Shown piece by piece: positions 17,278 to 37,215 of a stretch of DNA of 64,000 nucleotides. The notes under the pieces were generated by a model, which ran no database searches, was not told the origin of the DNA, and was given only the letters and a program-made list of their open reading frames with translations. Numbering within the stretch: position 1 is the stretch's first letter; the number at the start of each line of letters is the position of its first letter. A program made the position numbers and the translations under genes. The stretch covers positions 62,001 to 126,000 of the forward strand of contig NZ_JAGHQX010000001.1 in the NCBI RefSeq assembly GCF_017744095.1, read 5' to 3'. Source of the DNA: Shimia sp. R10_1 (GTDB taxonomy: Bacteria; Pseudomonadota; Alphaproteobacteria; Rhodobacterales; Rhodobacteraceae).

Positions 17278-18075
17278 TCAAACTCTCCCCATCGCGAAGC
17301 CCTTCGCGATATAGTTACGAACGAAATAGATCACGATGGCGCCCGGGATGATGGTGAGCGTGCCGGCAGCAGCCAGCAGGCCCAGCTCATACCCCGCAGA
17401 AGAGGCGGTTTTGGTCATCGTTGCGGCGATTGGCTTTGCGGCCACAGCGGTCAGGGTTTTGGCCAAGAGCAGCTCCACCCATGAGAACATGAAGCAGAAG
17501 AAAGCAGCCACACCCACACCGGCTTTGATCGTCGGGATGAAGATCGTCAGGAAGAAGCGCGGGAAGGAATAGCCATCCACATATGCGGTTTCATCCAACT
17601 CCTTTGGGACGCCGCCCATGAAGCCTTCCAAGATCCACACAGCGAGCGGGATGTTGAAGAGGCAGTGCGCCAGCGCCACGGCGAGGTGCGTGTCAAACAG
17701 GCCCACAGCGGAGTAGAGCTGAAAGAAGGGCAGGGCGAACACGGCCGCTGGTGCCATACGGTTTGTCAGCAGCCAGAAGAACAGCTGCTTGTCGCCGAGA
17801 AAGCGATAGCGGCTGAAGGCATAGGCGGCGGGCAGGGCCACGGCAATGGAGATCAGCGTGTTCAGTGACACATAGATGATCGAGTTGATGTAGCCCCAAT
17901 ACCAAGAGGGATCGGTGAAGATCGTGACATAGGCCTCCAGCGTGAAGGTCTGTGGGAAGAGCGAAAACCCAGAGAGAATCTCGTTGGTGGTTTTGAAGCT
18001 CATCGCCACCAGCCAGTAGATCGGCAGCATCAGGAAGAAGATATACAGGATGGGGACAAGGGATCGTTTTTGCAT
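17278..18075 (-). CDS. glpQ: Glycerol-type ABC transporter permease (GlpQ-like)
   Basis: A 265-residue inner-membrane permease of the carbohydrate CUT1 MalG type with six hydrophobic segments. It carries the EAA loop that contacts the ATPase (PKELDETAYVDGYSFPRFF), with the ends KRSLVPILYIFFLMLPIYW and NYIAKGFAMGRV. Together with the next permease it forms the membrane channel of the importer. The glycerol assignment comes from operon content (two ATPases, DUF2160 and a GlpV-like binding protein), not from this gene alone. Confidence 0.87.
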   Translation of the reverse strand: MQKRSLVPILYIFFLMLPIYWLVAMSFKTTNEILSGFSLFPQTFTLEAYVTIFTDPSWYWGYINSIIYVSLNTLISIAVALPAAYAFSRYRFLGDKQLFFWLLTNRMAPAAVFALPFFQLYSAVGLFDTHLAVALAHCLFNIPLAVWILEGFMGGVPKELDETAYVDGYSFPRFFLTIFIPTIKAGVGVAAFFCFMFSWVELLLAKTLTAVAAKPIAATMTKTASSAGYELGLLAAAGTLTIIPGAIVIYFVRNYIAKGFAMGRV

Positions 18076-18090
18076 GATCGTTGCCCTTTC

Positions 18091-18954
18091 TTAGTTCAGG
18101 TCATCTTTGGTCATCAGCGTGTAGAACAGCCAAGACACAAAGAGGGTGATTGCGAAGTAGATGAGGCTCATCGCGGCGGCGGGGCCGAGGTCAAACTGAC
18201 CCAAAGCGATTTTCACCAGATCAATGGACAAGAGCGTGGTCGAGTTGCCGGGGCCACCCCCTGTGAGCACGAAAGGCTCGGTGTAGATGTTGAAGCTGTC
18301 CATGAAGCGCAGAAGGATTGCGATGGTCAGAACGCTTTTCATCTTGGGCAACTGGATAAAGCGGAACACCGACCAGTTGGAGGCACCGTCGATCTTGGCG
18401 GCCTGATAGTAGGCATCCGGGATCGAAACCAGACCGGCGTAAGCCAGAAGCACCACCAGCGAGGTCCAGTGCCACACATCCATGGTGATGATGGTCACCC
18501 AAGCGGCCACGGGATCCTGGGTCATGTCATAGTTGATGCCCAGCACGTGGTTCAGGAAATAGCCCAGAAGGCCAATGTCTGGCAGGGCAAAGATGTTCCA
18601 CATTGCACCGACCACGTTCCACGGGATCAGCATCGGCAGGGCCATCAGCACGAGGCAGACCGGTACCCAGAAGCCTTTGCGGGGCATAGAAAGCGCGATT
18701 GCGATGCCCAGTGGGATCTCGATGATGAGGATCATGAAGGTGAAGAAGAACTGACGGCCAAGCGCTGCGTGGAACCGCTCTGAGCGCAGGATCTGTTCAA
18801 ACCAGGTGACGCCTTCCCAGAAGAAGAGGTTGTCGCCGAAGGTTTCCTGCACGGAGTAGTTCACCACGGTCATCATCGGGATGATGGCGTTGAACGCCAC
18901 GAGGATCAGCACCGGGGCGACGAAGAACCAGGCTTTTTGGTTTTCGGTTTTCAT
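18091..18954 (-). CDS. glpP: Glycerol-type ABC transporter permease (GlpP-like)
   Basis: A 287-residue MalF-type permease with six membrane helices. The EAA loop is IPDAYYQAAKIDGASNWSVF, and the N-terminus MKTENQKAWFFVAPVLILVA is typical. Its ATG overlaps the stop of the upstream ATPase gene in an ATGA, so the two are translationally coupled, and the GlpQ-like gene follows after 15 bp. Confidence 0.87.
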   Translation of the reverse strand: MKTENQKAWFFVAPVLILVAFNAIIPMMTVVNYSVQETFGDNLFFWEGVTWFEQILRSERFHAALGRQFFFTFMILIIEIPLGIAIALSMPRKGFWVPVCLVLMALPMLIPWNVVGAMWNIFALPDIGLLGYFLNHVLGINYDMTQDPVAAWVTIITMDVWHWTSLVVLLAYAGLVSIPDAYYQAAKIDGASNWSVFRFIQLPKMKSVLTIAILLRFMDSFNIYTEPFVLTGGGPGNSTTLLSIDLVKIALGQFDLGPAAAMSLIYFAITLFVSWLFYTLMTKDDLN

Positions 18955-20054
18955 GCTGCGCTCTCCTTTTGCGCGGGCTCAGAAGCGATCCAGCCGTCGG
19001 AATAAAGACGGGTGTGCTCTGGGGTGAAATGCAAATGCACCGCGTCACCTTTCTGCGGCGCAGGGCCGTTTTGAATGGCGGCGACTTTGTGACCGTCAAC
19101 AGTGGCTTCGACCACGGTGTGGCGGCCTACGTCGGCGATACGGGTGACGGTTGCCGGGATCGCGGCTGTGTTGCTGCTGTCCGTCAGGCTGACAAACTCT
19201 GGGCGAATGCCGACTTCAAGCTTGCCTGAGGCACCCGCTTTGATCGCACCTTCGAGCGCCACGGGGCGGCCAGCAAAGAAGGCCTGACCGTCTTTGACTT
19301 CCGCAGGCAGCACGTTCATGCCGGGGGAGCCGATGAAGTGGCCGACAAAGGTGTGGGCGGGGCGTTCAAACAGCTCTTCGGGTGTGCCGATCTGCACCAC
19401 TTCGCCCAGCTGCATCACCACCACCTGATCGGCAAAGGTGAGCGCTTCGGTCTGGTCGTGGGTGACGTAGATCATGGTCTGGGAGACGCGCTGGTGCAGC
19501 TCTTTGAGCTTGGTGCGCAGTTTCCATTTCAGGTGTGGGTCGATCACGGTGAGCGGCTCGTCAAACATGACGACGTTCACATCATCGCGCACAAGGCCAC
19601 GGCCCATGGAGATCTTTTGCTTGTTGTCTGGCGACAGGCCGGCCGCTTTGCGATCCAGCATGTCGGTGACTTCGAGCATCTCGGCAATCTCGGCCACGCG
19701 CTTTTCGATGATCGCCGGATCCACGCCGCGGTTCTTGAGCGGGAAGGCAAGGTTTTCGCGCACGGTCATGGTGTCGTAGATCACCGGGAACTGGAACACC
19801 TGTGCGATGTTGCGCTGATCGGGGGGCAGGGTGGTGACGTCTTGGCCATCAAACAGGATCTGGCCCTCAGACGGCACCAAGAGGCCGGAGATGATGTTCA
19901 GAAGGGTGGATTTGCCGCAGCCGGAGGGGCCAAGCAGGGCATAAGCGCCGCCGTCTTGCCAATCCAGATCGACTTCTTTGAGGGCAAAGTCCTGTGGCCC
20001 CTTGGGATCGGGGTAGTAGCTGTGCCGGAGGTTTTTAAGTGTGATTTTCGCCAT
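18951..20054 (-). CDS. glpT: ABC transporter ATP-binding protein (GlpT-like)
   Basis: A 367-residue ATPase of the MalK type with an OB-fold regulatory tail. Walker A is LLGPSGCGKSTLL, Walker B region reads VVMFDEPLTVIDPHLK, and the switch His is in YVTHDQTEALTFADQ. The signature motif is unusual (LSPDNKQKISMGRGL instead of LSGGQ), while the sister ATPase keeps a canonical LSGGQQQR. One degenerate and one canonical site in a heterodimer is a known pattern for this transporter type. Confidence 0.87.
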   Translation of the reverse strand: MAKITLKNLRHSYYPDPKGPQDFALKEVDLDWQDGGAYALLGPSGCGKSTLLNIISGLLVPSEGQILFDGQDVTTLPPDQRNIAQVFQFPVIYDTMTVRENLAFPLKNRGVDPAIIEKRVAEIAEMLEVTDMLDRKAAGLSPDNKQKISMGRGLVRDDVNVVMFDEPLTVIDPHLKWKLRTKLKELHQRVSQTMIYVTHDQTEALTFADQVVVMQLGEVVQIGTPEELFERPAHTFVGHFIGSPGMNVLPAEVKDGQAFFAGRPVALEGAIKAGASGKLEVGIRPEFVSLTDSSNTAAIPATVTRIADVGRHTVVEATVDGHKVAAIQNGPAPQKGDAVHLHFTPEHTRLYSDGWIASEPAQKESAA

Positions 20055-20065
20055 TCTCTTTGCCC

Positions 20066-21127
20066 TCAGCCGACGCGGGCGCCATCGGGCGCGAAGTAAA
20101 AACAGGTGGTCGGATCAAGGAAGAAATCGTGTTCTTCGCCAATCCGATAGGGGTGGGTGCCATGGGCGAGGCTGACCCAGCTGTTGCCGTCAAAGTCAAA
20201 GTGGGCCGAGCTTTCAGAACCTGAGAGTTCGGTCACGCCAACATGGCCTTTGAGCGCAACATCTGAGCCGTCATGGGCATGGGGCAACACGTGGTGTGGG
20301 CGCACAGCCATGATGTAGTCGCCATCTGTCAGGCCAGCGGCCTCACCGGATGCGGTCCAGCTCAGCGCGCCAAGGTGCATGGCATCGCCGCGTTTGGTGA
20401 CAGGTGCGTGGTTGATCGGCGGATCAGAGAAGATGCGGGCCGCGGTGAGGGAGGCCGGGGCGCGGTAGATGTCGGCGGTGGGGCCAAACTGCGCCACGTT
20501 GCCATCAACCATAAGCGCGGTTTCCCCGCCCAGAAGCAGAGCTTCTTCGGGCTCGGATGTGGCGTAGACCACCACGGCGCCGCGGCCGGCAAACAGCTCT
20601 GGCAGCTGCTCGCGCAGCTCTTCGCGCAGTTTGTAATCAAGGTTGGCCAGCGGCTCATCCAGAAACACCGCGCGGCTTTCTTTGGCAATGGCGCGCGCCA
20701 GCGCACAGCGCTGTTGCTGACCACCGGAAAGCTCATGTGGGCGACGGTGCAGCATCGGGCCAAGCTGAAGAATATCGGCGGCTTCGGCCACGCGGTCTGC
20801 GATCTCCGACTTTGCCATGCCTGCCACTTTCAGCGGGGAGGCAATGTTTTCAAACACGGTCATATGCGGGTAGTTCACAAAGAACTGGTGCACGAGGCTG
20901 ATTTTGCGTTTCTGAGTGGTCAGCGCGGTGACATCTTCGCCTTCCATGATGATTTGGCCGGCGGCGATTGGGTCGAGCCCAGCCATCATCTTAATCAGAG
21001 AGGTTTTGCCAGCGCCGGTTTCACCCAGCAGAACGTTGAAGTGGCCTTTCTTCAACGTCAGGGTCGTTGGCTTGATGTGTGTTACACCCTGCACGACCTT
21101 GGAAATGTTCTTTAGTTCAAGTGCCAT
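20066..21127 (-). CDS. glpS: ABC transporter ATP-binding protein (GlpS-like)
   Basis: A 353-residue MalK-type ATPase. Walker A is LLGETGAGKTSLIK, the signature is ELSGGQQQRCALARA, and Walker B is AVFLDEPLANLD. The position of the switch His is occupied by Ser in VVYATSEPEEALLL, so this subunit lacks the H-loop histidine and its partner (GlpT-like) supplies it. The two ATPases therefore complement each other. It is the first gene after the binding protein, 145 bp downstream, with a strong hairpin between them. Confidence 0.87.
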   Translation of the reverse strand: MALELKNISKVVQGVTHIKPTTLTLKKGHFNVLLGETGAGKTSLIKMMAGLDPIAAGQIIMEGEDVTALTTQKRKISLVHQFFVNYPHMTVFENIASPLKVAGMAKSEIADRVAEAADILQLGPMLHRRPHELSGGQQQRCALARAIAKESRAVFLDEPLANLDYKLREELREQLPELFAGRGAVVVYATSEPEEALLLGGETALMVDGNVAQFGPTADIYRAPASLTAARIFSDPPINHAPVTKRGDAMHLGALSWTASGEAAGLTDGDYIMAVRPHHVLPHAHDGSDVALKGHVGVTELSGSESSAHFDFDGNSWVSLAHGTHPYRIGEEHDFFLDPTTCFYFAPDGARVG

Positions 21128-21200
21128 GGATGCACCTTTGATCCTTATGGAGTCGGCCCAAGAGGTTGGGCAATGGAGGAGGGGAGTGTGTGTGTAAGGT

Positions 21201-21229
21201 GGCCGGGGCTTTAAAGGTAAGCCCCGGCC
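21201..21229 (-). terminator. Intra-operon hairpin between binding protein and ATPase genes
   Basis: A perfect 10 bp stem (ggccggggct / agccccggcc, 9-base loop) without a T run lies between glpV and glpS. In binding-protein operons such hairpins stabilise the upstream mRNA and reduce read-through, which would explain a high ratio of binding protein to membrane parts. Confidence 0.65.
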
Positions 21230-21272
21230 GGTTCGACCATGAACACGGGGAGTGTCAGGTCAGGAGGAACAG

Positions 21273-23009
21273 TTAGTTCTGGTTCCAGCGGGCAATCAGA
21301 GCGTCATAGTTGACGGTCTCGCCCTGTGGTTTTTCGTTGTCCAGCTTTGGCTTCGCGCCGCCGTTGGCAAACCACCACTCTGCGTCTTTCTCCTCGTTGA
21401 GGCGAGGACCACAGCCGCCATAGACATTCTGAGCTTCGTCTGCGCGCTGCATACGAGCCATGGTGATGTCCATTTCTTCGGCCAGACGGTCCATCGCTTC
21501 TTGTGGGGTGAAGGCGCCGGAGTTCACGTCACCGATCTGCTGCCACCAGATTTGGGCCAGCTTCGGATAGTCAGGCACGTTTACGCCAGTTGGGGACCAT
21601 GCCACGCGATCGGGAGAGCGGTAGAATTCTACCAGACCACCCAGTTTCGGGGCGCGCTCGGTGAAGCTTTCGTGGTTCACAGAGCTGTCACGGGTGAAGG
21701 TCAGACCCACGTGGGATTTCTTCACGTCAACCGTTTTAGAGGTCACAAACTGTGCATAGAGCCAAGCGGCCTGTGCACGGTCTGCTGGGGTGGACTTCAG
21801 GAAGGTCCAGGAGCCAACGTCCTGATAGCCAACCTTCTGGCCTTTTTCCCAGTAAGGACCATGCGGGCTTGGAGCCATGCGCCACAGTGGGTTGCCTTCG
21901 GCGTCCACAGTGTTGTTGCCTTCAGACTGAGGCTTCACCATGTCTGCGGTAAACGCGGTGTACCAGAAGATCTGCTGTGCCACGTTGCCCTGTGCCAGTG
22001 CTGGCAGAGACTGGTAGAAGTCATAAGACGCCGCACCGGGAGGCGCGTAGTTGCGCAGCCATTCATCCCATTTGCGGATCGCGTAAACCGCCGCTGGGCC
22101 GTTTGCTGCACCACCGCGGGTAACGGATGCACCAGCTGGGTTACAGGAACCGGCTTCCATGCGGATGCCCCATTCGTCGATAGGCACACCGTTTGGCTCA
22201 CCCTTGGAGCCTGCACCTGCCATGGACAGCCAAGCATCGGTCATACGCCAGCCAAGGTCTGGGGCGCGTTTGCCGTAGTCCATGTGGCCGTAGATGTCGA
22301 CGCCATCGATGTTTTTAACATCTTTGGAGAAGAACTCTGCGATGTCCTCATAGGCTGACCAGTTTACAGGCACGCCGAGGTCATAGCCGTATTTGGCTTT
22401 GAACTGCTCTTGCAGGTCTGCGCGGTCAAACCAGTCTTTGCGGAACCAGTAGAGGTTTGCAAACTGCTGGTCTGGCAGCTGGTAGAGGTCGCCATCTGGG
22501 CCCGTGGTGAACTGGGTGCCCATGAAGTCATCCAGATCGAGCGTCGGAGAGGTCGTTGCCGCCCAGTCGCCCGCCATCATGTCGGTCAGGTTGTAGGCCA
22601 GCTGCAGGCGGGAGTGCGTGCCGATCAGGTCGGAGTCATTGACGTAGCCGTCATAGAGGTTCCGCTTGGTCTGCATCTGGGTTTGCACCGCCTGAACCAC
22701 TTCGCCTTCGCCGAGGATCTGGTGGTTGACTTTGATGCCAGTGATTTCTTCAAACGCCTTGGTCAGAACTTCGGCTTCGTAGCCGTGGGTTGGAATGCCT
22801 TCTGACAGAACGTTGATTTCCATGCCCGCGTAGGGCTGTGCCGCAGTGATGAACCACTGCATTTCGCTCATCTGCTCATCTTTGCTGAGCGAAGATGGCT
22901 GGAACTCTGCATCGATCCAGCGCTTCGCTGCCGCTTCGTCGGCATAGAGCGATTGAGTGCCCGCAATTACGGCAGAAGCCGCAACGGCGGAGATAAGATA
23001 CTTCCGCAT
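21273..23009 (-). CDS. glpV: Glycerol-type ABC transporter substrate-binding protein (GlpV-like)
   Basis: A 578-residue periplasmic binding protein with a signal peptide (MRKYLISAVAASAVIAGTQ, cleavage after LYA). It is longer than most CUT1 binding proteins and matches the glycerol-binding GlpV branch by features such as KRWIDAEFQPSSLSKDEQ, the GPDGDLYQLPDQQFANLYWF segment and the C-terminal NVYGGCGPRLNEEKDAEWWF. It delivers substrate to GlpP/GlpQ. RBS GGGAGG lies 6 bases before ATG 23009. It heads the operon. No glycerol kinase or glycerol-3-phosphate dehydrogenase is in the window. Confidence 0.86.
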   Translation of the reverse strand: MRKYLISAVAASAVIAGTQSLYADEAAAKRWIDAEFQPSSLSKDEQMSEMQWFITAAQPYAGMEINVLSEGIPTHGYEAEVLTKAFEEITGIKVNHQILGEGEVVQAVQTQMQTKRNLYDGYVNDSDLIGTHSRLQLAYNLTDMMAGDWAATTSPTLDLDDFMGTQFTTGPDGDLYQLPDQQFANLYWFRKDWFDRADLQEQFKAKYGYDLGVPVNWSAYEDIAEFFSKDVKNIDGVDIYGHMDYGKRAPDLGWRMTDAWLSMAGAGSKGEPNGVPIDEWGIRMEAGSCNPAGASVTRGGAANGPAAVYAIRKWDEWLRNYAPPGAASYDFYQSLPALAQGNVAQQIFWYTAFTADMVKPQSEGNNTVDAEGNPLWRMAPSPHGPYWEKGQKVGYQDVGSWTFLKSTPADRAQAAWLYAQFVTSKTVDVKKSHVGLTFTRDSSVNHESFTERAPKLGGLVEFYRSPDRVAWSPTGVNVPDYPKLAQIWWQQIGDVNSGAFTPQEAMDRLAEEMDITMARMQRADEAQNVYGGCGPRLNEEKDAEWWFANGGAKPKLDNEKPQGETVNYDALIARWNQN

Positions 23010-23225: not shown

Positions 23226-23324
23226 GAGCGATTTCTGCCAGAAATTGTTGGCGCTATCGTTGCGGGTTTAGCCCGGTTTCATGCTGCTGTGTCATAGATG
23301 CGGCCTGCGCCAGAGGGAGGATCC

Positions 23325-24026
23325 ATGGCTGAATATCTGTTTGACGCTCCGGAGGTGTTTTCAATCCCGGTGGCTGGGGAACGTGCTGGGTACGCCGTGC
23401 GGCGCATCTTTTGTGTGGGGCGGAACTATGCCGCTCATGCGGCTGAGATGGGGGGAGAGGTTGATCGCGAGGCGCCGTGGTATTTCACAAAATCCGTGGC
23501 GCATGCGGTGCTGAGCGGTGCTGAGGTTGACTTTCCTCCGGGCACCGCGAACTACCATCACGAAATGGAACTGGCTTTTGTGCTGGGGGCATCGGTGTTT
23601 GAAGCCACTGAGGCGGAGGCCGCAGCGGCGATCTATGCTTATGGCTGTGCGCTCGACATGACGCGGCGGGATCGGCAGCAGGATGGCAAGGACCATCGCA
23701 GACCTTGGTCGCTTGGCAAAGATGTGGAAGGGTCCGCGGTTTTTGCGCCGCTGACACAAGCCGCCGACTTTGGTGCGCCAGCGGCGCAGGCGATCCATCT
23801 GGAGGTGGACGGGGAGACGCGTCAGGCCGCCGATCTGAGCGAGATGGTCTGGTCGCCCACAGAAATCGTCATGCATCTGTCGCGCTATTATCATCTGACC
23901 GCCGGGGACGTGATCCTGACAGGCACGCCCGCCGGTGTGGGGCCGGTGACGGCCGGGCAGGTGATCACAGGTGGGATTGAGGGGCTCGCGCCGATCCGAC
24001 TGTCGTTGAAAGTTACAAAAAGCTGA
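23325..24026 (+). CDS. Fumarylacetoacetate hydrolase family protein (fumarylpyruvate hydrolase-like)
   Basis: A 233-residue enzyme of the FAH superfamily. Metal-binding acids lie in YHHEMELAFVLG and the Asp of GCALDMTRRD; the end GVGPVTAGQVITGGIEGL is typical. The short form beginning GYAVRRIFCVGRNYAAHAAEMG matches fumarylpyruvate hydrolases of the gentisate route, which cut a ring-cleavage product to fumarate and pyruvate. Start 23325 has GGGAGG 4 bases upstream, better than the earlier ATG at 23298. It is 70 bp upstream of the reductive dehalogenase on the same strand, which suggests shared use in aromatic breakdown. Confidence 0.83.
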   Translation: MAEYLFDAPEVFSIPVAGERAGYAVRRIFCVGRNYAAHAAEMGGEVDREAPWYFTKSVAHAVLSGAEVDFPPGTANYHHEMELAFVLGASVFEATEAEAAAAIYAYGCALDMTRRDRQQDGKDHRRPWSLGKDVEGSAVFAPLTQAADFGAPAAQAIHLEVDGETRQAADLSEMVWSPTEIVMHLSRYYHLTAGDVILTGTPAGVGPVTAGQVITGGIEGLAPIRLSLKVTKS

Positions 24027-24096: not shown

Positions 24097-27000
24097 ATGG
24101 GGATAAAGTTTTTTTCGGATAAGGCGCGGCCGGTGCATCTTGGCTCTTATCCGCTGGAGCGATTGGTGCGCGGCGCGATGCCTGAGGTGGCGGGGATGCC
24201 ACGGGATCGCGCTCTGAGTTTCCATCGCCCGGAGCGGCCAGAGAGCATCGTCAACGCCATGGGCGAGTTTCAGGCGATGCTGGATGCGTTGCGCGACGGG
24301 TTGGTGAACCCGGTGCGCTCTGCCATTCCAGACGACCCAAAAGAGCGCGCCAATCATCTGAAAGCCTTTGGCTATTTCAATGATGCCTCGATGGTTGGGA
24401 TTGGGCCTGTGCCAGCAGCGGCGCGGTTGGCCACGCCACGGCGCAACCCAGACATTGACCGTTTGTCAGAAGATCTGCGCACGCGGCAGATCAAGTCTTT
24501 GGCGGCGGGGATTGATCTGATCATGGCGGATCTCAAGGACAGTATGGAAGCGCCGCCCAGCAGCATTGAGATCCACGAAAATGCGATCGTCTTTCTGATC
24601 GAGCATCATCGCGATCCGGAGCGGGGCGAGCCGGGCAGCGACTGGATTTTGGACGCACAGGACCACCGTGCTTGTTTGCGGGCCACTGAAGTGGCGGTGG
24701 TGATTGCCAACTACATCCGGCTTCTGGGATTTGGCGCAAAGGCGCACACGGCCACTTCCACCGATGTGGATCTGGGACGCGTGGGTGTGGCCGCGGGCTT
24801 GCTCGCGTTGGAAAATGGCGAATTGATCGCGCCTTGGGTTGGCAAACGCTATGGGCTGGCGGTGATCACCACGGATATGGATCTGGCGCATGACGGGGCG
24901 CTGGCGCCGATGCGGGCACAGCCCTGGGCGCAGACGCAGGGTCCGGCGTGGTGGCTGGGCACGGGATCGGCCAAATCAGCGCTGAACCAAGACCCGTTCC
25001 GCAATCGCGACTATGTGAAAGGCGCGCATCCGTTTGAGCGGCTGAAGCGGGTGGAAAGCCCGACCACCTATATTGACGAGGCCCATGTGGCGCGGGTGCC
25101 CAAGCGGGCGGATATGTTTGCGCGGGTGCAGTTTGGCGATATGGGCAAGCCGCTGCAGGATGCGGCCAAGGGGGGATATTACGTGCGCAAGGCCGCGCCG
25201 AGCATGGCGCAGCGCCGTGCGCTTGGCGCGTTTGTTCTGTTGCAAGATGGGGCCAGCGCGCAGGTTGCAAAACCGACTGACGCTGAACGCAACGCAGCCA
25301 ATTTGAAGGCTGCGAGTTATTTTCTGGGGGTGGATGCCGTCGGGTTGAGCCGGTGTCCGGAGTGGGCCTGGTATTCCCATGATGCCACCGGCTCAGAGAT
25401 CCATCCCGAACATGATCAGGCGGTGAGCATGATCATTGATCAGGGTTATGAGACCATGGAAGGGGCCTCCGGCGATGACTGGATCAGCGTGGCGCAATCC
25501 ATGCGGGCCTATCTGCGGTTTTCGCTGTTGGGCGGGGTGATCGCGCAACAGATCCGCAACCTTGGCTATAAGGCCAAAGCGCATACGGTGATGGACGGCG
25601 AAGTGCTTCAGCCGCCTCTGTTGCTGCTCTCGGGGCTGGGAGAGGTGAGCCGGATTGGCGAAGTGATCCTGAACCCTTATCTGGGGCCACGGCTGAAATC
25701 CGGTGCGGTCACCACGGACATGCCCATGGCGCATGATCTGCCGATTGATTTTGGCCTGCAAAACTTTTGTGAGAACTGCAACAAATGTGCGCGTGAATGT
25801 CCTTCTGGGGCGATCACCGCCGGGCCGAAGCGCATGTTCAACGGCTATGAAATTTGGAAGTCAGACAGCCAGAAATGTGCAACCTACCGGATCAGCACGC
25901 CCGGTGGCTCTATGTGCGGACGCTGTATGAAGACCTGCCCATGGAATTTGGAGGGGCTGTTTTCAGAAGCGCCGTTCCGCTGGGCAGCAAGCAATTTTCC
26001 AAGCCTTGCCAAGCCTTTGGCCAAGCTTGATGATGCGGTTGGCAATGGCGGGCTGAATGACGTCAAGAAGTGGTGGTGGGACATCGAGCTGGAAGAAGAT
26101 GGCGCCTATCGGCCCACCAAACACCCGCTCAACCGCCGTGATCTGCAGAAAGATCTGGACCTGAAATATGAGGATCAGACGCTGGCGGTTTATCCGGCGG
26201 CGTTGGCCCCGCATCCGTGGCCGTATCCGTTCCCCATGGATCGGGAGGCGGGGATCAAAGCCTATGAGGCGATGGTTTCCGCCGATGAATACAAGCTGCG
26301 GCTGGCGGCGGGGGACACCTCGGTGATTGACCGCTATGTGGTGCCGGATGCGGCGGATGCGCCGGTGGTGCAGGTGCAGATTTCTCAGGTCGAACCAATG
26401 ACGGCGGATGTGACCAAATATGAGTTCACCTCGCTGGATGGTGCGCCTTTGCCGGAGTGGACGGCGGGGGGGCATCTGGATGTTCTTGTCGCGCCGGAGT
26501 TTTTGCGCCAATACAGCATGTCCGGTGATCCCAAGGACCGCTCCAAATACCAGATTGGCGTGTTGCGTGAGGATCAGGGCCGGGGGGGCAGCGCCTTTCT
26601 GCACCGGATTTTCCGCGAAGGGCGCAAGGTGTTTGTATCCAAACCGATCAACCACTTTGAGCTGGTAGAGGAGGCGACAAAGAGCTTCCTGATGGGCGGC
26701 GGGATCGGGATTACGCCGATGATCGCCTTTGCCCATCGGCTGCATGATCTGGGGCGCGATTTTGCGCTGCACTACTCCGCCAGCCGAGAGGACGGTGCAG
26801 GCTATATTGCGGATCTCAAGGCGATGCCCTGGGCGGATAAAGTGGTGTTCCATTTTTCTGACAAAGGCACGCGCGCGGATCTGGATGAGATCCTTGGCGG
26901 CTATCAGGAGGGTTGGCATGTCTATACCTGCGGGCCGGACCGTTACATGGAAGGGGTCATGGCGGCGGCAGAGCGGCAGGGCTTCCCTGAGGAAGCGCGG

Positions 27001-27309
27001 CATCTGGAATACTTCAACGTGCCTGAGCAGCCGGAGTATGAGAATTTCGACTTTAAGTTAAAGTTGAAGGATGGTCGGGAACTGTTTGTTCCGGCTGATA
27101 AAATCGCCACAGATGTGCTGCTTGAAAACGGTGTGCATGTGGATGTGAAATGCGCCGATGGCATTTGTGGCGTGTGCAAATGCGGGCTGATTTCCGGAGA
27201 GGTGGAACACCGGGATTTTGTGCTGTCCAATAAGCAGAGGGAGACCTCGGTGATCCTGTGCCAGAGCCGGGCCAAAGAGGCGGGCGGTGTTGTGGAGATT
27301 GATCTCTGA
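24097..27309 (+). CDS. Self-sufficient reductive dehalogenase fused to a flavin/[2Fe-2S] reductase
   Basis: A 1070-residue protein. Residues 1 to about 720 are a RdhA-type dehalogenase: a duplicated nitroreductase-like cobalamin-binding region (parallel blocks near 181 and 459, each ending in TTDM-MAHD-like text) and two ferredoxin clusters, CENCNKCARECPSGA near 558 and CATYR...CGRCMKTCPW near 594-615. Residues about 755-1070 are a phthalate-dioxygenase-reductase-like unit: flavin motif RQYSMSG, nucleotide motif MGGGIGITPM, CGPDRYMEG and a plant-type [2Fe-2S] motif CADGICGVCKC with a last Cys in LCQS. There is no Tat signal, so it is cytoplasmic and catabolic rather than respiratory. This architecture corresponds to BhbA-like, NAD(P)H-driven enzymes that remove halogen from hydroxylated aromatics. 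The substrate is inferred only. Confidence 0.88.
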   Translation: MGIKFFSDKARPVHLGSYPLERLVRGAMPEVAGMPRDRALSFHRPERPESIVNAMGEFQAMLDALRDGLVNPVRSAIPDDPKERANHLKAFGYFNDASMVGIGPVPAAARLATPRRNPDIDRLSEDLRTRQIKSLAAGIDLIMADLKDSMEAPPSSIEIHENAIVFLIEHHRDPERGEPGSDWILDAQDHRACLRATEVAVVIANYIRLLGFGAKAHTATSTDVDLGRVGVAAGLLALENGELIAPWVGKRYGLAVITTDMDLAHDGALAPMRAQPWAQTQGPAWWLGTGSAKSALNQDPFRNRDYVKGAHPFERLKRVESPTTYIDEAHVARVPKRADMFARVQFGDMGKPLQDAAKGGYYVRKAAPSMAQRRALGAFVLLQDGASAQVAKPTDAERNAANLKAASYFLGVDAVGLSRCPEWAWYSHDATGSEIHPEHDQAVSMIIDQGYETMEGASGDDWISVAQSMRAYLRFSLLGGVIAQQIRNLGYKAKAHTVMDGEVLQPPLLLLSGLGEVSRIGEVILNPYLGPRLKSGAVTTDMPMAHDLPIDFGLQNFCENCNKCARECPSGAITAGPKRMFNGYEIWKSDSQKCATYRISTPGGSMCGRCMKTCPWNLEGLFSEAPFRWAASNFPSLAKPLAKLDDAVGNGGLNDVKKWWWDIELEEDGAYRPTKHPLNRRDLQKDLDLKYEDQTLAVYPAALAPHPWPYPFPMDREAGIKAYEAMVSADEYKLRLAAGDTSVIDRYVVPDAADAPVVQVQISQVEPMTADVTKYEFTSLDGAPLPEWTAGGHLDVLVAPEFLRQYSMSGDPKDRSKYQIGVLREDQGRGGSAFLHRIFREGRKVFVSKPINHFELVEEATKSFLMGGGIGITPMIAFAHRLHDLGRDFALHYSASREDGAGYIADLKAMPWADKVVFHFSDKGTRADLDEILGGYQEGWHVYTCGPDRYMEGVMAAAERQGFPEEARHLEYFNVPEQPEYENFDFKLKLKDGRELFVPADKIATDVLLENGVHVDVKCADGICGVCKCGLISGEVEHRDFVLSNKQRETSVILCQSRAKEAGGVVEIDL

Positions 27310-27378: not shown

Positions 27379-28536
27379 CTAGTTTGCGACCAAGCGCTGG
27401 GTTTCGCCTGCGATGATGCCTTCTTCATCGGTGGGGATGACATGGGCTGCGAGGCGGCTGGTTTCGCTTGTGATGCGGCTGGCACCGGAGGTGTTGGCCT
27501 CAGCATCCAAGTCTGCCCCAAGCCATGCGCAGCCCTGCAGGATACGTGCGCGTATGGGCGCTGCGTTCTCGCCAATGCCGCCGGTGAAGACGATGGCGTC
27601 AAGCCCGCCAAGGGTGGCGGCCAGCGCGCCGATCTTCTTGCAGGCCTGATAGACAAAGAGCTCCACCGCCTCAGCCGCTGCAGGGCTATCTGAGGCCAAG
27701 AGGTCTCGCATGTCAGAGCTGAGACCCGACACCCCGAAGAGGCCGGATTTGGTCCCTAAGGTGGTTTCGATTTCGGCCACGCTCATGCCGCGGTCACGCA
27801 TCATGTGAAAGATCACACCGGGGTCGAGCTCGCCGCAGCGACGGCCCATCACCAGCCCATCAAGGGCGGTGTAACCCATTGTTGTAGCGACACTTTTCAT
27901 GTTTTGCATGGCGCACATAGAGGCGCCGTTGCCCAGATGCGCGACAATCACCTTGCCGTTGGGCGTGTCCAGATGGTGCGGCAGTTGGGTGGCGATGTAG
28001 TGGTAGCTGAGCCCGTGAAAGCCATAGCGCAGCACACCGTCATCTGACAGCGCGCGTGGGATCGCAAAGAGCTGTGCGATGCGGGGCTGGGTGCGATGGA
28101 AGGCGGTGTCAAAGCAGGCGATCTGTGGAATTTCAGGCCAGCGACGGGCGACTGCCTCAATGCCTGCGAGGTTGTGGGGTTGATGCCCCGGGGCAAGTGG
28201 GGCGAGGCTGCGCAGCTTCTCGATCACGTCGTCGGTGACGCGAGCAGGCGCGGCAAACTCCTGTCCGCCATGCACCACGCGGTGGCCCGCGCCAATGATG
28301 TTGAAGCCCCTTTCCAGCCCCATGATGTGGGCCAGCAGCCAGTCAAGAATTTCGGCGTGGGTTGCGTCTTTGGCGACGGGCAGGTCGATGTCGCGTGCGC
28401 CGCCATGATAGTGCGGTCCCATGCCGATGCGATCTACCTGGCCTGAGAGTTGCACTGCCAAGTTGGTGTCATAGACCGCATATTTGATCGAAGAGGAACC
28501 GGCGTTCAGGATGAGATAGGCGTCTTGGGCGCTCAC
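27379..28536 (-). CDS. ackA: Acetate kinase
   Basis: A 385-residue ASKHA-fold kinase that interconverts acetyl phosphate plus ADP with acetate plus ATP. Signatures are the N-terminal AYLILNAGSSSIKYAVYD, GHRVVHGG, FDTAFH, YGFHGLSYHYI, HLGNGAS and FTGGIGENA. It overlaps the stop of the upstream phosphate acetyltransferase gene by 4 bases (ATGA), so the two are coupled. Propionate kinase is closely related and cannot be excluded. Confidence 0.94.
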   Translation of the reverse strand: MSAQDAYLILNAGSSSIKYAVYDTNLAVQLSGQVDRIGMGPHYHGGARDIDLPVAKDATHAEILDWLLAHIMGLERGFNIIGAGHRVVHGGQEFAAPARVTDDVIEKLRSLAPLAPGHQPHNLAGIEAVARRWPEIPQIACFDTAFHRTQPRIAQLFAIPRALSDDGVLRYGFHGLSYHYIATQLPHHLDTPNGKVIVAHLGNGASMCAMQNMKSVATTMGYTALDGLVMGRRCGELDPGVIFHMMRDRGMSVAEIETTLGTKSGLFGVSGLSSDMRDLLASDSPAAAEAVELFVYQACKKIGALAATLGGLDAIVFTGGIGENAAPIRARILQGCAWLGADLDAEANTSGASRITSETSRLAAHVIPTDEEGIIAGETQRLVAN

Positions 28537-29477
28537 ATCAGATCCTTTCCGAGGCTGTGGTGCACCAAGAGCTGGGCGAGCGCGGCAGAAACGAGGCGCG
28601 ACAGGGTGCCATCCGCACGGGAGGTCAGCATGATGGGCACACGTGCGCCCAGAACGATGCCGGCGCTGTCGGCGCCTGCCAGATACATCAGCTGTTTGGC
28701 GATCATATTGCCGGCCTCAAGATCGGGTGCGACGAGGATGTCGGCGTCTCCGGGGACGTCTGATTTGATGCCTTTGGCATCGGCGGCGCGGCGGGAGATG
28801 GCGTTGTCAAACGCCAGCGGGCCATCGAGCACACCGCCGGTGATCTGGCCACGATCTGCCATTTTGCAGAGCGCTGCGGCCTCTACCGTTGACGGGATCT
28901 TGGGATAGATGGTTTCCAGCGCCGACAGGATGGCGACTTTGGGCGTGTCGACTCCGATGGCTTGTGCCAGCCCGATGGCGTTTTGCACAATATCGGCTTT
29001 GGCTATGAGATCGGGGAAGATATTGATCGCGGCGTCGGTGATCATCAGCGGCTTGGGGTAGGCGGGCACATCGAGCACGAAAACATGGCTCATGCGGCGC
29101 TCTGTGCGCAGGCCGTGGGTTTTGTGCACAACGGCGCTCATGACCTCATCTGTGTGCAGCGCGCCTTTCATGATCGCCTGCGCACGGCCCTCGCGCACCA
29201 GGCGCACCGCTGTTTCGGCGCTGTCATGGCTGTGGGGGGCGTCGACGATCTCGCAGTTGGAAATGTCGAGGTTGTTTTCCTCTGCTGCGGCGTTGATGCG
29301 CTCGGTTGGGCCCACAAGCAGGGGGGTGATCAGCCCTTTTTCAAGCGCGGCCAAGGCACCCGCGAGCGAAGCTTCGTCAACAGGGTGGACAACTGCAGTG
29401 ACAATGGGCGCGAGGGGCGCGGTGGCCTCCAGCATGTCGTCAAAGCTGTTTTTATGATGAGGGGCAGAAAGATCCAC
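28533..29477 (-). CDS. pta: Phosphate acetyltransferase (short form)
   Basis: A 314-residue enzyme that transfers acetyl between CoA and phosphate. It contains the family blocks GRAQAIMKGALHTDEVM, RRMSHVFVLDVPAYPKPLMI and a substrate loop near GGVLDGPLAFDNAIS. It is the short Pta type often called phosphate acetyl/butyryltransferase and common in Rhodobacteraceae, where a relative follows the sulfoacetaldehyde acetyltransferase gene xsc. No xsc is present here; instead ackA overlaps it, so the pair makes acetate and ATP from acetyl-CoA or the reverse. Confidence 0.88.
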   Translation of the reverse strand: MDLSAPHHKNSFDDMLEATAPLAPIVTAVVHPVDEASLAGALAALEKGLITPLLVGPTERINAAAEENNLDISNCEIVDAPHSHDSAETAVRLVREGRAQAIMKGALHTDEVMSAVVHKTHGLRTERRMSHVFVLDVPAYPKPLMITDAAINIFPDLIAKADIVQNAIGLAQAIGVDTPKVAILSALETIYPKIPSTVEAAALCKMADRGQITGGVLDGPLAFDNAISRRAADAKGIKSDVPGDADILVAPDLEAGNMIAKQLMYLAGADSAGIVLGARVPIMLTSRADGTLSRLVSAALAQLLVHHSLGKDLM

Positions 29478-32348: not shown

Positions 32349-33542
32349 TTATGGCTCCCGGAACGCCTCTTTGCTTTTGTAGAGCGGCTTCAGCAGATAA
32401 CGCAGGATGGTTTTGGAGCCGGTGTGCAATTCCACTGTGGCGCGCATGCCGGGGCGGATTTCTATGGCTTTCTGCCGCTCTGTGAGCGCATCGCCGTCTA
32501 CGGTGACTGTCACGCGGTAGAAGGGCAGTGCGGCGGGGTCGCGCTCGTCCTCAAAGGTGTCGGCGGAAATGAAATCCACTTTGCCCTTGAGGGTGCCGTA
32601 GATGGTGTAGTCGTAGGCGGTGAGCTTGATGGAGGCGTCTTGGCCGGGCTCAACATTGGCGATGTTTTCCGGGCGCACGCGGGCCTCGACAAACAGTTCC
32701 TCACCCAGAGGGATGATTTCAAAGATTTCCTCACCGGGGCGCACCACGCCGCCGATTGTGGTGACGGCCAAGTTGTTCACGATGCCGCGCATGGGGGCGG
32801 TGATCACGGTGCGGGAAAGCTGATCCTGCGCGAGGCGCATTTCCTGACGCAGCGAAGTGATCTCTTTGAGGGTTTCAGAGTATTCCTCTGCCAGCACCAG
32901 CTCGGCTTGGGTGAGGATGTCCATGTAGCGGATCTCGGCCTCTGAGGCCTTCTCGCGGGCTTTGTTGACCTCCAGCAGGGCGACAAATTCTTTTTTATAG
33001 AGGCTCTCCATGTTGGAGAGTTCGTCCTGCGCTTGTTCGAGCTGCGTGAAAGCGCCTTCGCGGCGGCTGTCGATGTCGGTCTGGCGGGCGGCGAGCAGGG
33101 CGCGCTCGGAACTTAGAATGCGCGGGGCGCGGGCTGCAAGCTCATCAGACACCGCAAACTCGAATTTGCCATCTATCTCTGCCTCCAGGCGCAGACGACG
33201 GATTTCAAGCGCGTCGATTTGATCTTGCAGGTCATCAAAGGCAGAGCGAAAGCGGGTGTCAGACAGCGTGGCGAGGACTTGACCGGCCTCCACAAGGTCG
33301 CCCTGTTTGACGGCGAGATCGGCGAGGATGCCGCCTTCGAGGTTTTGCACCGATTGAGAGCGCGAGGAGGAGACAACTTCGCCGTCGGCACGCACGATTT
33401 CGTCCACCCAAGCAAAGGCCGCCCAGAGGACAAACAGGCCCACCGCGATGGCGATCAGACGGATGGTGAGGCGGGAGGCGCGGAGCTGATCATCTAGACC
33501 TGCATCATATCTTGCGCCGCTGTCATCGCTTGTGGCGCTCAT
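32349..33542 (-). CDS. HlyD-type membrane fusion protein of the type I secretion system
   Basis: A 397-residue periplasmic adaptor. One membrane helix near residues 27-47 (IAVGLFVLWAAFAW) is followed by a biotinyl-lipoyl half (VVSSSRSQSVQNLEGGILADL), long coiled coils (about 85-240) and the second half-motif (MRGIVNNLAVTTIGGVVRPG). It links the ABC exporter to the TolC-like channel. Its start overlaps the stop of the ABC gene by 4 bases. It is the last gene of the locus and no clear terminator follows. Confidence 0.93.
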   Translation of the reverse strand: MSATSDDSGARYDAGLDDQLRASRLTIRLIAIAVGLFVLWAAFAWVDEIVRADGEVVSSSRSQSVQNLEGGILADLAVKQGDLVEAGQVLATLSDTRFRSAFDDLQDQIDALEIRRLRLEAEIDGKFEFAVSDELAARAPRILSSERALLAARQTDIDSRREGAFTQLEQAQDELSNMESLYKKEFVALLEVNKAREKASEAEIRYMDILTQAELVLAEEYSETLKEITSLRQEMRLAQDQLSRTVITAPMRGIVNNLAVTTIGGVVRPGEEIFEIIPLGEELFVEARVRPENIANVEPGQDASIKLTAYDYTIYGTLKGKVDFISADTFEDERDPAALPFYRVTVTVDGDALTERQKAIEIRPGMRATVELHTGSKTILRYLLKPLYKSKEAFREP

Positions 33543-35815
33543 GTGCGGTCTCCGGCGGCGAGATGGGCGAGGACCTGTTCGCGCGGGCCATCCACCACAA
33601 GGCGGCCGTTTTGCAGGATCAGCGTGCGCGTGGAGAGCGACAGGATCGGTGTGCGGTGGGTGGCGATCAGGGCGGTGCGGCCCTCAAGCCAAGTGGACAG
33701 GCGGCTGACAAGGGTGCGCTCGAGCGTTTGATCCAGCGCGGCTGTGGGTTCATCCAGCAGAACGATCTGTGGGTTCTGCAGCCAGAGGCGGGCCCAACCG
33801 ATGGATTGACGCTGACCGATGGAGAGGCCCTCGCCGCCGTCGCGGATTTGCAGGTCGAGGCCCTGCGGGTGGTTGCGCAGGAAGGGGCCGAGGCCCGCGA
33901 AATCCAGCGCTTCCATCAGGCGGTCATCGTCGCGTTCCAGCTGGGTGAGGTTCAGGTTGTCGCGCAGGCTGCCGGCAAACAGGCGCACGTCTTGGGACAG
34001 GTAGCCGATGTTGCGGCGCAGGTCGCGCTGGTCAATCTGGCTCATGTCGGTGCCGTCGAGTAGCAGACGGCCTTTGGTCGGGCCGTAAAGGCCAGCCATA
34101 AGCTTCAGGAGCGTGGATTTGCCGGAGCCGTTGGCGCCGAGAATTGTGACGCGCTGGCCGGGTTTGATCACCACGCCGGGGACATCAAGTGTGGGCGCGC
34201 CTTCGGGATCATAGGCGAATGACAGCTCGCGCAGTTCGAACTGGCCGGAGAGCTTTTCGCGGCGCAGATATTTGCGCTCTCCGTCTTTCTCCTGCTCAGA
34301 AAGTGCAATGGCATCAAGGCTTTCCAGGGCGCCTTTGACGTTTGACCAGCGCGCTAGGGTGCCTGCAAACTGGGTGAGCGGTGCAAGGGTGCGGGAGGTC
34401 AGAATGCCGGTGGCGATGATGGTGCCGACGGTAAATTCACCCGCAAACACCAGGTAGGTGCCGATCACGACGGTGGCGATGTAGGTGGTTTGCTGCACGC
34501 CTTGGGACCAGTAGGTCAGCGCAGAGCTGAGGCGGCGCTGTTCAGCGGAGGAGAAAGAGGACACCGCGTTGAGTTCGTCCCACAGACGCAGCACGCGGTC
34601 TTCGCCGCGCTGGGTCTTGACCGTGTCGAGCTCTGTGATGACCTCCTGCAGTAGGCGGCCCACTTTGGCGGAGGCGCCCTGGGTTTCGCGCGACAGGGCA
34701 ATCATGCGCTTTTGCAACACATAGGCGGGCAGAACCATCAGTATGCCGCCAAATATCAGCAGCCAAACAAGGTTGCCCGCAATGGAGGCGACCAGTGCGA
34801 GAAAAATCACGATGAACGGCATATCCGCCAGAACGGAGATCGTGGTGGAGGTGAAGAAATCACGCACCGCGCCAAAATCGCGCATCGCAGCAAAGAGGCC
34901 GGAAGGCGGTAGGGGGCGGCGGTCAGAGCGCATGCCAAGCAGGCGCTTCATCAGGCGGTGCTGGATTGACAGCTCCATGCGGCGGCCAGCGGCGTCGCTC
35001 ATCTTGGCGCGCGCGAGCTTCAGCATGCCTTCAAGCCCGATGGCAAAGATCGCGCCAATGGCGAGTACCCAGAGCGTGGCCTGACTTTGATGCGGGATCA
35101 CGCGGTCATAGACTTGAAGCGAAAACAGGGCGACGGCCACGGCAAGCAGATTGGCCACCAGAGAGCCAAGCATGATCTCGCCCATATGGCGGCGGTATTT
35201 GGTGAACTCGCCCCAGAACCAATGGCCGGACATGCCATCTGCGACCTGTGGAATGTGGCGTTCTGCCAATTGGCGCAGGGAGACTTTGGCCCGCAGGGCT
35301 GTGCCCGAAAAGAACGGTACAAACTCGGAAAGCGGCACTTCTGCGCGGTTGTCTGGCTGACTGTCATCAAAGACGGTGAGCGTCTCTTCTTCCTGTGACA
35401 ACACCAGCACCGCCTGACCGTTGGTCATTATGGCGATGGCGGGCCATGCGGTCGGCGCAGGTGCAAGCTTGTTGTGCACCTTCGGCTCCACTCCGGCCTG
35501 TGCCAGCGCATTTGCCAGTGCTTTGACAGAGACATCGCCCGGGGCAGAGGTCCACATGTGTTCGGCCACATCGGTGACGGGCACGTCAGAGCCATTGAGG
35601 GCGGCGAGGGTGGAGATCAGCGTGGCGCGGTGCTGAATTCGGGTGGCAGTTGCTTCGACCAGTTCGTGGATCGCATCTGTTGGCTTGGCTGGTTCAGAAG
35701 CGTTTGCGTTTTGATGGGCGTTTGCGGGCGTGGCCTGATTGGCAGGCTCCGCCGCTTTGATCGACGCAATGGAGAGCACCACCGGGGCTTTGCCTTGGGG
35801 GCTGTCGGCCGTCAA
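33539..35815 (-). CDS. Type I secretion ABC exporter (LapB/LssB-like)
   Basis: A 758-residue exporter with three parts. The N-terminal region (to about 200) contains a degenerate C39-like domain without a catalytic Cys, as in exporters of large repeat adhesins. A membrane domain follows, then the ATPase (Walker A GANGSGKST, signature LSIGQRQSIGWARL, Walker B IVLLDEPTAALD). It drives export of the upstream Bap-like protein. The first ~35 residues are a low-complexity Ala/Asn/Pro-rich tail. It overlaps both neighbours by 4 bases. Confidence 0.93.
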   Translation of the reverse strand: MTADSPQGKAPVVLSIASIKAAEPANQATPANAHQNANASEPAKPTDAIHELVEATATRIQHRATLISTLAALNGSDVPVTDVAEHMWTSAPGDVSVKALANALAQAGVEPKVHNKLAPAPTAWPAIAIMTNGQAVLVLSQEEETLTVFDDSQPDNRAEVPLSEFVPFFSGTALRAKVSLRQLAERHIPQVADGMSGHWFWGEFTKYRRHMGEIMLGSLVANLLAVAVALFSLQVYDRVIPHQSQATLWVLAIGAIFAIGLEGMLKLARAKMSDAAGRRMELSIQHRLMKRLLGMRSDRRPLPPSGLFAAMRDFGAVRDFFTSTTISVLADMPFIVIFLALVASIAGNLVWLLIFGGILMVLPAYVLQKRMIALSRETQGASAKVGRLLQEVITELDTVKTQRGEDRVLRLWDELNAVSSFSSAEQRRLSSALTYWSQGVQQTTYIATVVIGTYLVFAGEFTVGTIIATGILTSRTLAPLTQFAGTLARWSNVKGALESLDAIALSEQEKDGERKYLRREKLSGQFELRELSFAYDPEGAPTLDVPGVVIKPGQRVTILGANGSGKSTLLKLMAGLYGPTKGRLLLDGTDMSQIDQRDLRRNIGYLSQDVRLFAGSLRDNLNLTQLERDDDRLMEALDFAGLGPFLRNHPQGLDLQIRDGGEGLSIGQRQSIGWARLWLQNPQIVLLDEPTAALDQTLERTLVSRLSTWLEGRTALIATHRTPILSLSTRTLILQNGRLVVDGPREQVLAHLAAGDRT

Positions 35816-37149: not shown

Positions 37150-37184
37150 GTCGCGTGCGTATACCCTTGGGAGACGGGGAGAGA

Positions 37185-37205
37185 AAGGGCGGCCATCAGC
37201 CGCCC
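37185..37205 (-). terminator. Hairpin between the secreted protein gene and its transporter genes
   Basis: A perfect 7 bp stem (gggcggc / gccgccc, 5-base loop) followed on the minus strand by TTTCTC. It is placed to attenuate transcription after the abundant secreted substrate, so the exporter genes are made at a lower level. Confidence 0.6.
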
Positions 37206-37215
37206 CTCTGATCTG

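Follow-up and report, generated by a model that had tools for sequence, protein, structure and literature searches.

What does a reductive dehalogenase do in an aerobic marine bacterium, and what becomes of the compound that it has dehalogenated? The question is raised by a gene of Shimia sp. R10_1, a member of a marine, aerobic genus. The gene lies in a 64,000-nucleotide stretch of contig NZ_JAGHQX010000001.1 (positions 62,001 to 126,000; hereafter the window) and joins a reductive dehalogenase (RdhA) to an NAD(P)H reductase in one chain, here called the fusion. Judging by its sequence, the protein is very likely an NAD(P)H-driven, cobalamin-dependent catabolic dehalogenase. With high confidence, short of certainty, we read it as a cytoplasmic ortho-bromo/iodo phenol dehalogenase whose product, in this host, most likely passes through homogentisate. 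The observation made in the first-pass annotation of this gene is confirmed, and the interpretation given there is partly supported.

The 1070-residue open reading frame (ORF) reads as a single intact chain, a catabolic RdhA followed by a reductase module. This arrangement, proposed from the letters of the DNA, is confirmed by the NCBIfam reductive dehalogenase model TIGR02486 (199.6 bits against a cut-off of 160.35) and by matches to known structures. Over the first two thirds, the PDB entry nearest in sequence is NpRdhA of Nitratireductor pacificus (PDB 4ras, 6zxu; E 1e-152, covering residues 3-103 and 159-735). Two self-sufficient P450s (E 2e-51 and 3.6e-51) come closest over the last third, and residues 758-1066 match phthalate dioxygenase reductase 2pia (E 1.4e-50). 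Pfam Fer2 scores 34.5 bits against a cut-off of 21, and three Fer4-type models pass their cut-offs, Fer4_7 with 34 bits against 27. The reductase module also carries the motifs RQYS and GGGIGITP, which we take to be flavin-binding and nucleotide-binding, respectively. The N-terminal third, absent from the first-pass annotation, is a second, degenerate RdhA-type domain like that of NpRdhA, which has been termed a 'vestigial duplication' (PMC10463259). For an AlphaFold model built from a 41-row alignment, Foldseek ranks NpRdhA chains first, with a TM by target of 0.82-0.83; the N-terminal domain lies largely within the better-modelled part, with NpRdhA as top match. Stop-free homologues over nearly the whole length occur in 21 of the 24 other genomes of the genus, more than chance would give.

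The residues expected of a phenol dehalogenase are in place. All six substrate-contact residues of NpRdhA, with roles as established for that enzyme (PMC7565698), are kept: Phe341 (F291), Ser468 (S422), Met469 (M423), Tyr472 (Y426), Lys534 (K488) and Arg598 (R552). The fate of the catalytic Tyr and Lys/Arg had been chosen beforehand as a refuting test, and the alignment finds Tyr472 and Lys534 conserved. Alignment with NpRdhA and BhbA also places twelve cluster cysteines, eight for two [4Fe-4S] clusters (residues 558-614; the first motif reads CENCNKCARECP) and four for the [2Fe-2S] cluster. In a first set of homologues the six contact residues and twelve cysteines are invariant (113/113). In a second, overlapping set drawn from family loci, neither the contact residues nor the eight [4Fe-4S] cysteines vary (141/141), and the [2Fe-2S] cysteines are kept in 140 or 141 of the 141.

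The protein groups with RdhA and not with the epoxyqueuosine reductase QueG; clustering with QueG, the other outcome named beforehand as refuting, did not occur. The QueG model TIGR00276 fails on it (24.1 bits against a cut-off of 200), and a true QueG is encoded separately in the host genome (contig C34, 426.4 bits). Over residues 395-700 identity is 21.0% to QueG and 30.9% to a Sulfurospirillum RdhA. A FastTree phylogeny places the protein within the fused-enzyme clade of its family, apart from BhbA, NpRdhA, the Sulfurospirillum RdhA and the host QueG; in this quickly made tree the outgroups sit on very long branches, and we rely on it only for the placement inside the fused clade. No twin-arginine (Tat) motif was seen by eye in the N-terminus MGIKFFSDKARPVHLGSY, and a Tat pattern scan of 113 rows, the window included, returned a single Tat-like string, in L063. 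Gaps of 69 and 70 bases to the flanking genes leave therefore no space for a directly adjacent rdhB, a statement made from gene spacing with no RdhB-model search. The absence of a Tat signal and of a small anchor gene beside the fusion, both noted in the first-pass annotation, hold to this extent, and its picture of a cytoplasmic, NAD(P)H-driven, catabolic enzyme of the BhbA type is supported.

Enzymes of this type are already known. BhbA (Comamonas sp. 7D-2 plasmid pBHB, WP_015585978.1) has the same full-length domain order and the same Tyr, Lys and Arg; identity is about 49% over the whole chain (48.9-49.2%), 62.0% over residues 395-700 and 49.5% over the reductase module. At 42.0% identity over 572 aligned positions (51.1% over residues 395-700), NpRdhA shares the vestigial domain, the core and the six contact residues and differs in having no reductase fused to it. 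A close parallel, compared by its published description, is JtRdhA of the marine Jhaorihella thermophila (WP_104007082), which combines a vestigial domain with a phthalate-dioxygenase-reductase fusion, has no Tat signal and keeps the same contact residues (PMC10463259). Ros_A3X954 of Roseobacter sp. MED193, a marine roseobacter debrominase, likewise has no Tat signal. Its cluster motifs stand at 283-294 and 337-345, leaving no room for a vestigial N-terminal domain, and it is reported to be highly oxygen-sensitive (PMC13101508).

Around the conserved residues, as read from the alignment, the pocket wall is different from those of BhbA and NpRdhA. Val465 corresponds to Ala419 in NpRdhA and Ser in BhbA, and Val498 to Asn452 and Ala; in the family loci Val465 is found in 113 of 141 (Cys in 22) and Val498 in 139. 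Met340, Tyr362 and Ala357 stand against Phe290, Phe310 and Lys307 of NpRdhA, and the alignment near residues 357-363 spans a gap and is uncertain. Lys307 touches the substrate carboxylate in one binding mode of NpRdhA (PMC7565698).

The mechanism, the preference for bromine and iodine and the use of NADPH are drawn from characterised homologues, to which the present analysis adds architecture, residues, clade and the presence or absence of pathway genes. NAD(P)H would reduce the C-terminal reductase's flavin by hydride transfer, and single electrons would then travel through the [2Fe-2S] cluster and both [4Fe-4S] clusters to cobalamin in its base-off form. The substrate, a phenol with bromine or iodine in the ortho position, would be held through its hydroxyl by Lys534, Arg598 and Ser468 with the halogen facing cobalt; reduction would free the halide, and Tyr472 would donate a proton. 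Acting in the cytoplasm, the enzyme would thereby open the degradation of halogenated 4-hydroxyphenyl acids, and the dehalogenated product would most likely enter the homogentisate route of the host.

The choice of halogen follows JtRdhA, whose activity has been measured (PMC10463259), whereas for the window enzyme we infer it. According to that report, purified JtRdhA is driven by NADPH with tight coupling, is active in air, and takes off bromine and iodine; the chlorinated compounds tested inhibit it and undergo no dechlorination. It acts on 3-bromo-4-hydroxyphenylacetate at 99% of its top rate, and Escherichia coli W carrying it grows on this compound (PMC10463259). By analogy, the window enzyme may share the bromine and iodine preference, the use of NADPH, the activity in air and the failure to dechlorinate. 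The first-pass annotation had spoken of BhbA-like enzymes that remove bromide or chloride; bromide stands, and chloride does not agree with the behaviour of JtRdhA. The likely substrates are ortho-bromo or ortho-iodo 4-hydroxyphenyl acids, and the physiological substrate is presumably one of these.

Which route could take up the product? In the host genome PobA reached at best 30.4 bits against a cut-off of 538.7 and intradiol dioxygenase 20.4 against 27.3; PcaH and LigB-type dioxygenases gave no match, and gentisate dioxygenase none over the cut-off. A BhbA-style route through 4-hydroxybenzoate therefore looks closed. HmgA is present (630.5 bits), and its gene heads a row on one strand with fumarylacetoacetase, a metallohydrolase, an FAD monooxygenase and maleylacetoacetate isomerase, a divergent MarR gene standing before hmgA. 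Entry of the product into the homogentisate route, the only one found among those tested, is what we infer for this host. An exosortase E/protease of the VPEID-CTERM system (L162 6053-7648) lies shortly ahead of the homogentisate genes. As to the cofactor, cobN scores over its cut-off in the host genome, and cobalamin is therefore probably made by the host. The cobN match comes in two pieces (G000 C11:823836-827123; L156, L157), the second with one TGA inside, which may be a frame-reading effect of the search or a real break. The window holds no cobalamin riboswitch above the Rfam threshold.

We then turned to the gene neighbours of the fusion in other members of the family. Neighbourhoods were covered in 141 of the 149 fusion-bearing family genomes, mostly with 6 kb per side where the contig allowed and with one copy taken from two-copy genomes; outside the 141 are G000 and G004 of the window's genus, the partial or cut G387, G147, G150, G316 and G366, and G088. 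hmgA lies near the fusion in two loci (L262, L160). In L262 hmgA (truncated where the sequence read ends), one short ORF, maiA, the genes for fumarylacetoacetase, a metallohydrolase and an FAD monooxygenase, and the fusion follow one another on one strand, with 246 bases ahead of the fusion gene. In L160 the fusion follows, by 16 bases (longest ORF) or 46 (homology start), a MarR gene lying divergently to hmgA, with a product 54% identical to the MarR protein beside the host's own hmgA. In four loci pobA, over its cut-off, adjoins the fusion: 12 bases downstream in L207 and 86 in L215, both on the same strand, divergently at 256 bases in L176 and convergently at 237 bases in L168. L231 carries LigAB genes about 4.7 kb from the fusion, and L210 an FAD monooxygenase of the homogentisate-row kind 1.6 kb upstream. 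The control proteins QueG, CobN, AckA, PTA and cystathionine synthase matched in 0, 1, 0, 0 and 0 of the loci, the single CobN match being doubtful (32% identical over about half the length). With pobA or homogentisate genes as neighbours of the fusion, these loci suggest that in some relatives the products enter the breakdown of 4-hydroxybenzoate or of homogentisate.

The link to hmgA was weighed in two further ways. For two hmgA-linked loci in 141, the rough chance expectation is 0.35 (assuming a 4 Mb genome) and the probability of two or more is 0.048; both loci fall in one clade of 15 rows, where they are not sisters, and the result is statistically weak. Across the family, hmgA is found in 131 of the 149 genomes with the fusion and in 137 of the 245 without it (Fisher p 1e-11).

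Several points weigh against the reading of a debrominase feeding homogentisate. This last figure is uncorrected for kinship. In the window genome the fusion does not stand beside hmgA (contig C11 versus C36), and 132 of the 141 loci matched no pathway protein tried. Among relatives pobA is the commoner pathway neighbour (4/141 versus 2/141), and homogentisate is therefore not the general route: we dropped it as a family-wide reading on this control count and keep it only for hosts that, like this one, have hmgA and are without the other routes tested. The survey of host pathways covers the families named above; the aromatic routes of the extradiol type I, phenylacetyl-CoA and benzoyl-CoA epoxide kinds, and also 4-hydroxyphenylpyruvate dioxygenase, lie beyond it. 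In its catalytic core the AlphaFold model has a mean pLDDT of only 63.8, too poor for placing the pocket residues in space. Lastly, the activity, cofactor and substrate of the enzyme are predictions from the gene.

A serious rival, with a substantial though lesser chance of being correct, is that halogen removal only detoxifies bromophenols of algae or other marine life and the product goes unused for growth. The lack of the five ring-hydroxylation or ring-cleavage families in the host and the many loci that matched no pathway protein fit this explanation. So do the MarR-family regulators, which are often tied to phenolic stress: in the 108 upstream neighbours scanned with family models, MarR models match at least 15. 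LysR models match at least 5 of the same neighbours. Speaking against pure detoxification are the rows of L207 and L262, with pobA and with the homogentisate genes, which suggest that the product is used in some relatives. The neighbours scanned were 108 of the 123 lying within 600 bases upstream, the other 15 having been set aside mainly for their length, and the 122 downstream neighbours were compared with the pathway and control protein panels only; the MarR, LysR and pobA counts are lower bounds. Haloacid-dehalogenase-like hydrolase models (PF00702, PF13419) match 7 of the 108.

It is improbable that the window enzyme serves in the manner of BhbA, on 3,5-dibromo- or 3-bromo-4-hydroxybenzoate with the product passing through PobA and protocatechuate. 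BhbA adjoins LigAB genes (protocatechuate 4,5-dioxygenase) on pBHB, and pobA stands beside the fusion in the four loci above and near a fusion homologue on a plasmid record of Nitratireductor OM-1. The window genome, in contrast, has neither PobA nor intradiol dioxygenase over cut-off and no PcaH or LigB family member, and Ala replaces the carboxylate-contacting Lys307 of NpRdhA at a position where the alignment is uncertain. Likeness to BhbA, as the first-pass annotation had it, extends to the type of enzyme and stops short of the fate of the product, for which those families were not found and HmgA is present, and of the pocket, which differs. We think it very improbable that the fold now serves a different reductive cleavage, removing an ortho-methoxy or some other group in place of halogen: the pocket does depart from both aligned references, yet none of the 141 family loci varies at the six halophenol-contact residues, and debromination is on record for JtRdhA, which is a fusion of this kind (PMC10463259). 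To a respiratory RdhA or a QueG-like enzyme we give practically no credence, the common fold and cluster motifs (with the QueG model at 24.1 bits) being outweighed by the missing Tat motif, the lack of space for an adjacent rdhB, the fused reductase, the separate QueG and the low score and identities given above.

The debrominase reading gains in interest from the spread of the enzyme, which is not rare and whose kind already has a characterised member. The fusion is present in 149 of 394 family genomes (match E 1e-150 or better), which were drawn evenly and come nearly all from different genera; most of the listed positive rows span nearly the whole query and some are partial. The nearest named relatives of the protein are in Shimia sp. 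R9_2 (95% identity), which bears out the marine host of the first-pass annotation, and S. marina (91%). One genome of the genus (G017) has two copies (L097, L114), 85% and 64% identical to that of the window. Eight records of a plasmid collection match at E 1e-60 or better, pBHB included. Two reports describe putative bhbA homologues as widely distributed in the Roseobacter clade (PMC13101508) and list Ruegeria pomeroyi and other members of the kind in the legend of a tree (PMC10463259, Fig. 1).

With BhbA and JtRdhA at hand the enzyme type is known, and what is new here is the gene and pathway context and the count of breadth. Roseobacter-type marine bacteria are abundant and aerobic, and given the breadth of the fusion, reductive debromination that tolerates oxygen may be commonplace among them. 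With pobA and the homogentisate genes as leads, the question of the natural substrate becomes one that growth of culturable Shimia strains and their relatives could answer. A broader proposal, speculative and on present evidence rather unlikely, is that in many marine roseobacters the enzyme performs a housekeeping salvage of 4-hydroxyphenyl acids with an ortho halogen, for example those left when bromo- and iodotyrosine are broken down, into the homogentisate (tyrosine) pathway. It would then be a B12-dependent bacterial counterpart of iodotyrosine deiodinase, with genera differing in the route taken (homogentisate or 4-hydroxybenzoate). In a search that left subscription papers largely outside and went by titles and the openings of abstracts, we found no literature linking a reductive dehalogenase of this kind to homogentisate and none on a reductive dehalogenase in Shimia.

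Table 1. Coordinates in the window of the fusion gene, its parts and sites, and its two flanking genes.
Feature	Positions	Strand	Basis or remark
rdhA-reductase fusion gene, complete	24097..27309	+	1070 aa, open from ATG; RdhA and reductase models and structure matches; homologues
Degenerate N-terminal RdhA-type domain, about aa 1-330 (approximate boundary)	24097..25086	+	aligns with N-terminal part of NpRdhA
Catalytic cobalamin-binding and iron-sulphur core, about aa 331-745 (approximate boundary)	25087..26331	+	TIGR02486, best stretch aa 429-649
Phthalate-dioxygenase-reductase-type module (flavin, NAD(P)H and [2Fe-2S] parts), aa 755-1070	26359..27306	+	2pia match, Fer2
Stretch with differing pocket residues Val465 and Val498	25489..25590	+	alignment
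Tyr472 (NpRdhA Tyr426), proton donor	25510..25512	+	alignment; 113/113 and 141/141 rows
Lys534 (NpRdhA Lys488)	25696..25698	+	alignment; both row sets
First [4Fe-4S] motif, aa 558-569	25768..25803	+	alignment, Fer4_7
Second [4Fe-4S] motif, Cys594 and CGRCMKTCP (607-615), aa 594-615	25876..25941	+	alignment
Arg598 (NpRdhA Arg552), phenol-oxygen contact	25888..25890	+	alignment; both row sets
RQYS motif, aa 804-807	26506..26517	+	alignment
GGGIGITP motif, aa 867-874	26695..26718	+	alignment
Plant-type [2Fe-2S] ligands Cys1019, 1024, 1027, 1055	27151..27261	+	Fer2, alignment
FAA-hydrolase-family gene, possible operon partner	23298..24026	+	70 bases upstream, co-directional; PF01557 159.5 bits
Acetate kinase gene	27379-28536	convergent with fusion	69 bases from fusion stop

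The FAA-hydrolase gene is paired with the fusion in 14 of the 22 fusion-bearing genomes of the genus, the window among them; in the ten loci measured, 34-121 bases separate the two genes. As a universal partner it was rejected: beyond these genomes an adjoining homologue, 42% identical, occurs in one of 141 loci (L243), and distant homologues lie farther off in four more. A conserved operon across genera was likewise rejected, the neighbours changing from genus to genus. In an operon survey of 76 of 80 loci (in four the gene was lost to the ORF filter), the fusion is followed in L019-L077, mainly Ruegeria, by a hydroxylase of the xanthine-dehydrogenase type, with its FAD subunit in 27 and its molybdenum subunit in 26 of the 76 loci and the FAD subunit mostly within 130 bases; a divergent LysR gene stands upstream in 29. 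The best model for the large subunit, 4-hydroxybenzoyl-CoA reductase alpha, is far under its cut-off (449.1 against 994.55 bits), and the linkage, found mostly in one genus, possibly reflects shared ancestry alone.

On the other side of the window's fusion, genes for acetate/propionate kinase and phosphate acetyltransferase occupy 27379-29477, convergent with it; in 13 of the 76 loci, all Shimia-like, the kinase gene is found no more than 3.5 kb downstream of the fusion. An ABC transporter with two ATPases and a solute-binding protein (17278-23009) adjoins the FAA-hydrolase gene and is kept in only some Shimia loci. Farther along, a type I secretion set of HlyD, ABC transporter and outer membrane efflux protein (32349-39891) lies by the gene of an 891-residue protein. 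To judge by its BapA prefix-like domain and numerous Ig-like repeats, this protein resembles a secreted adhesin.

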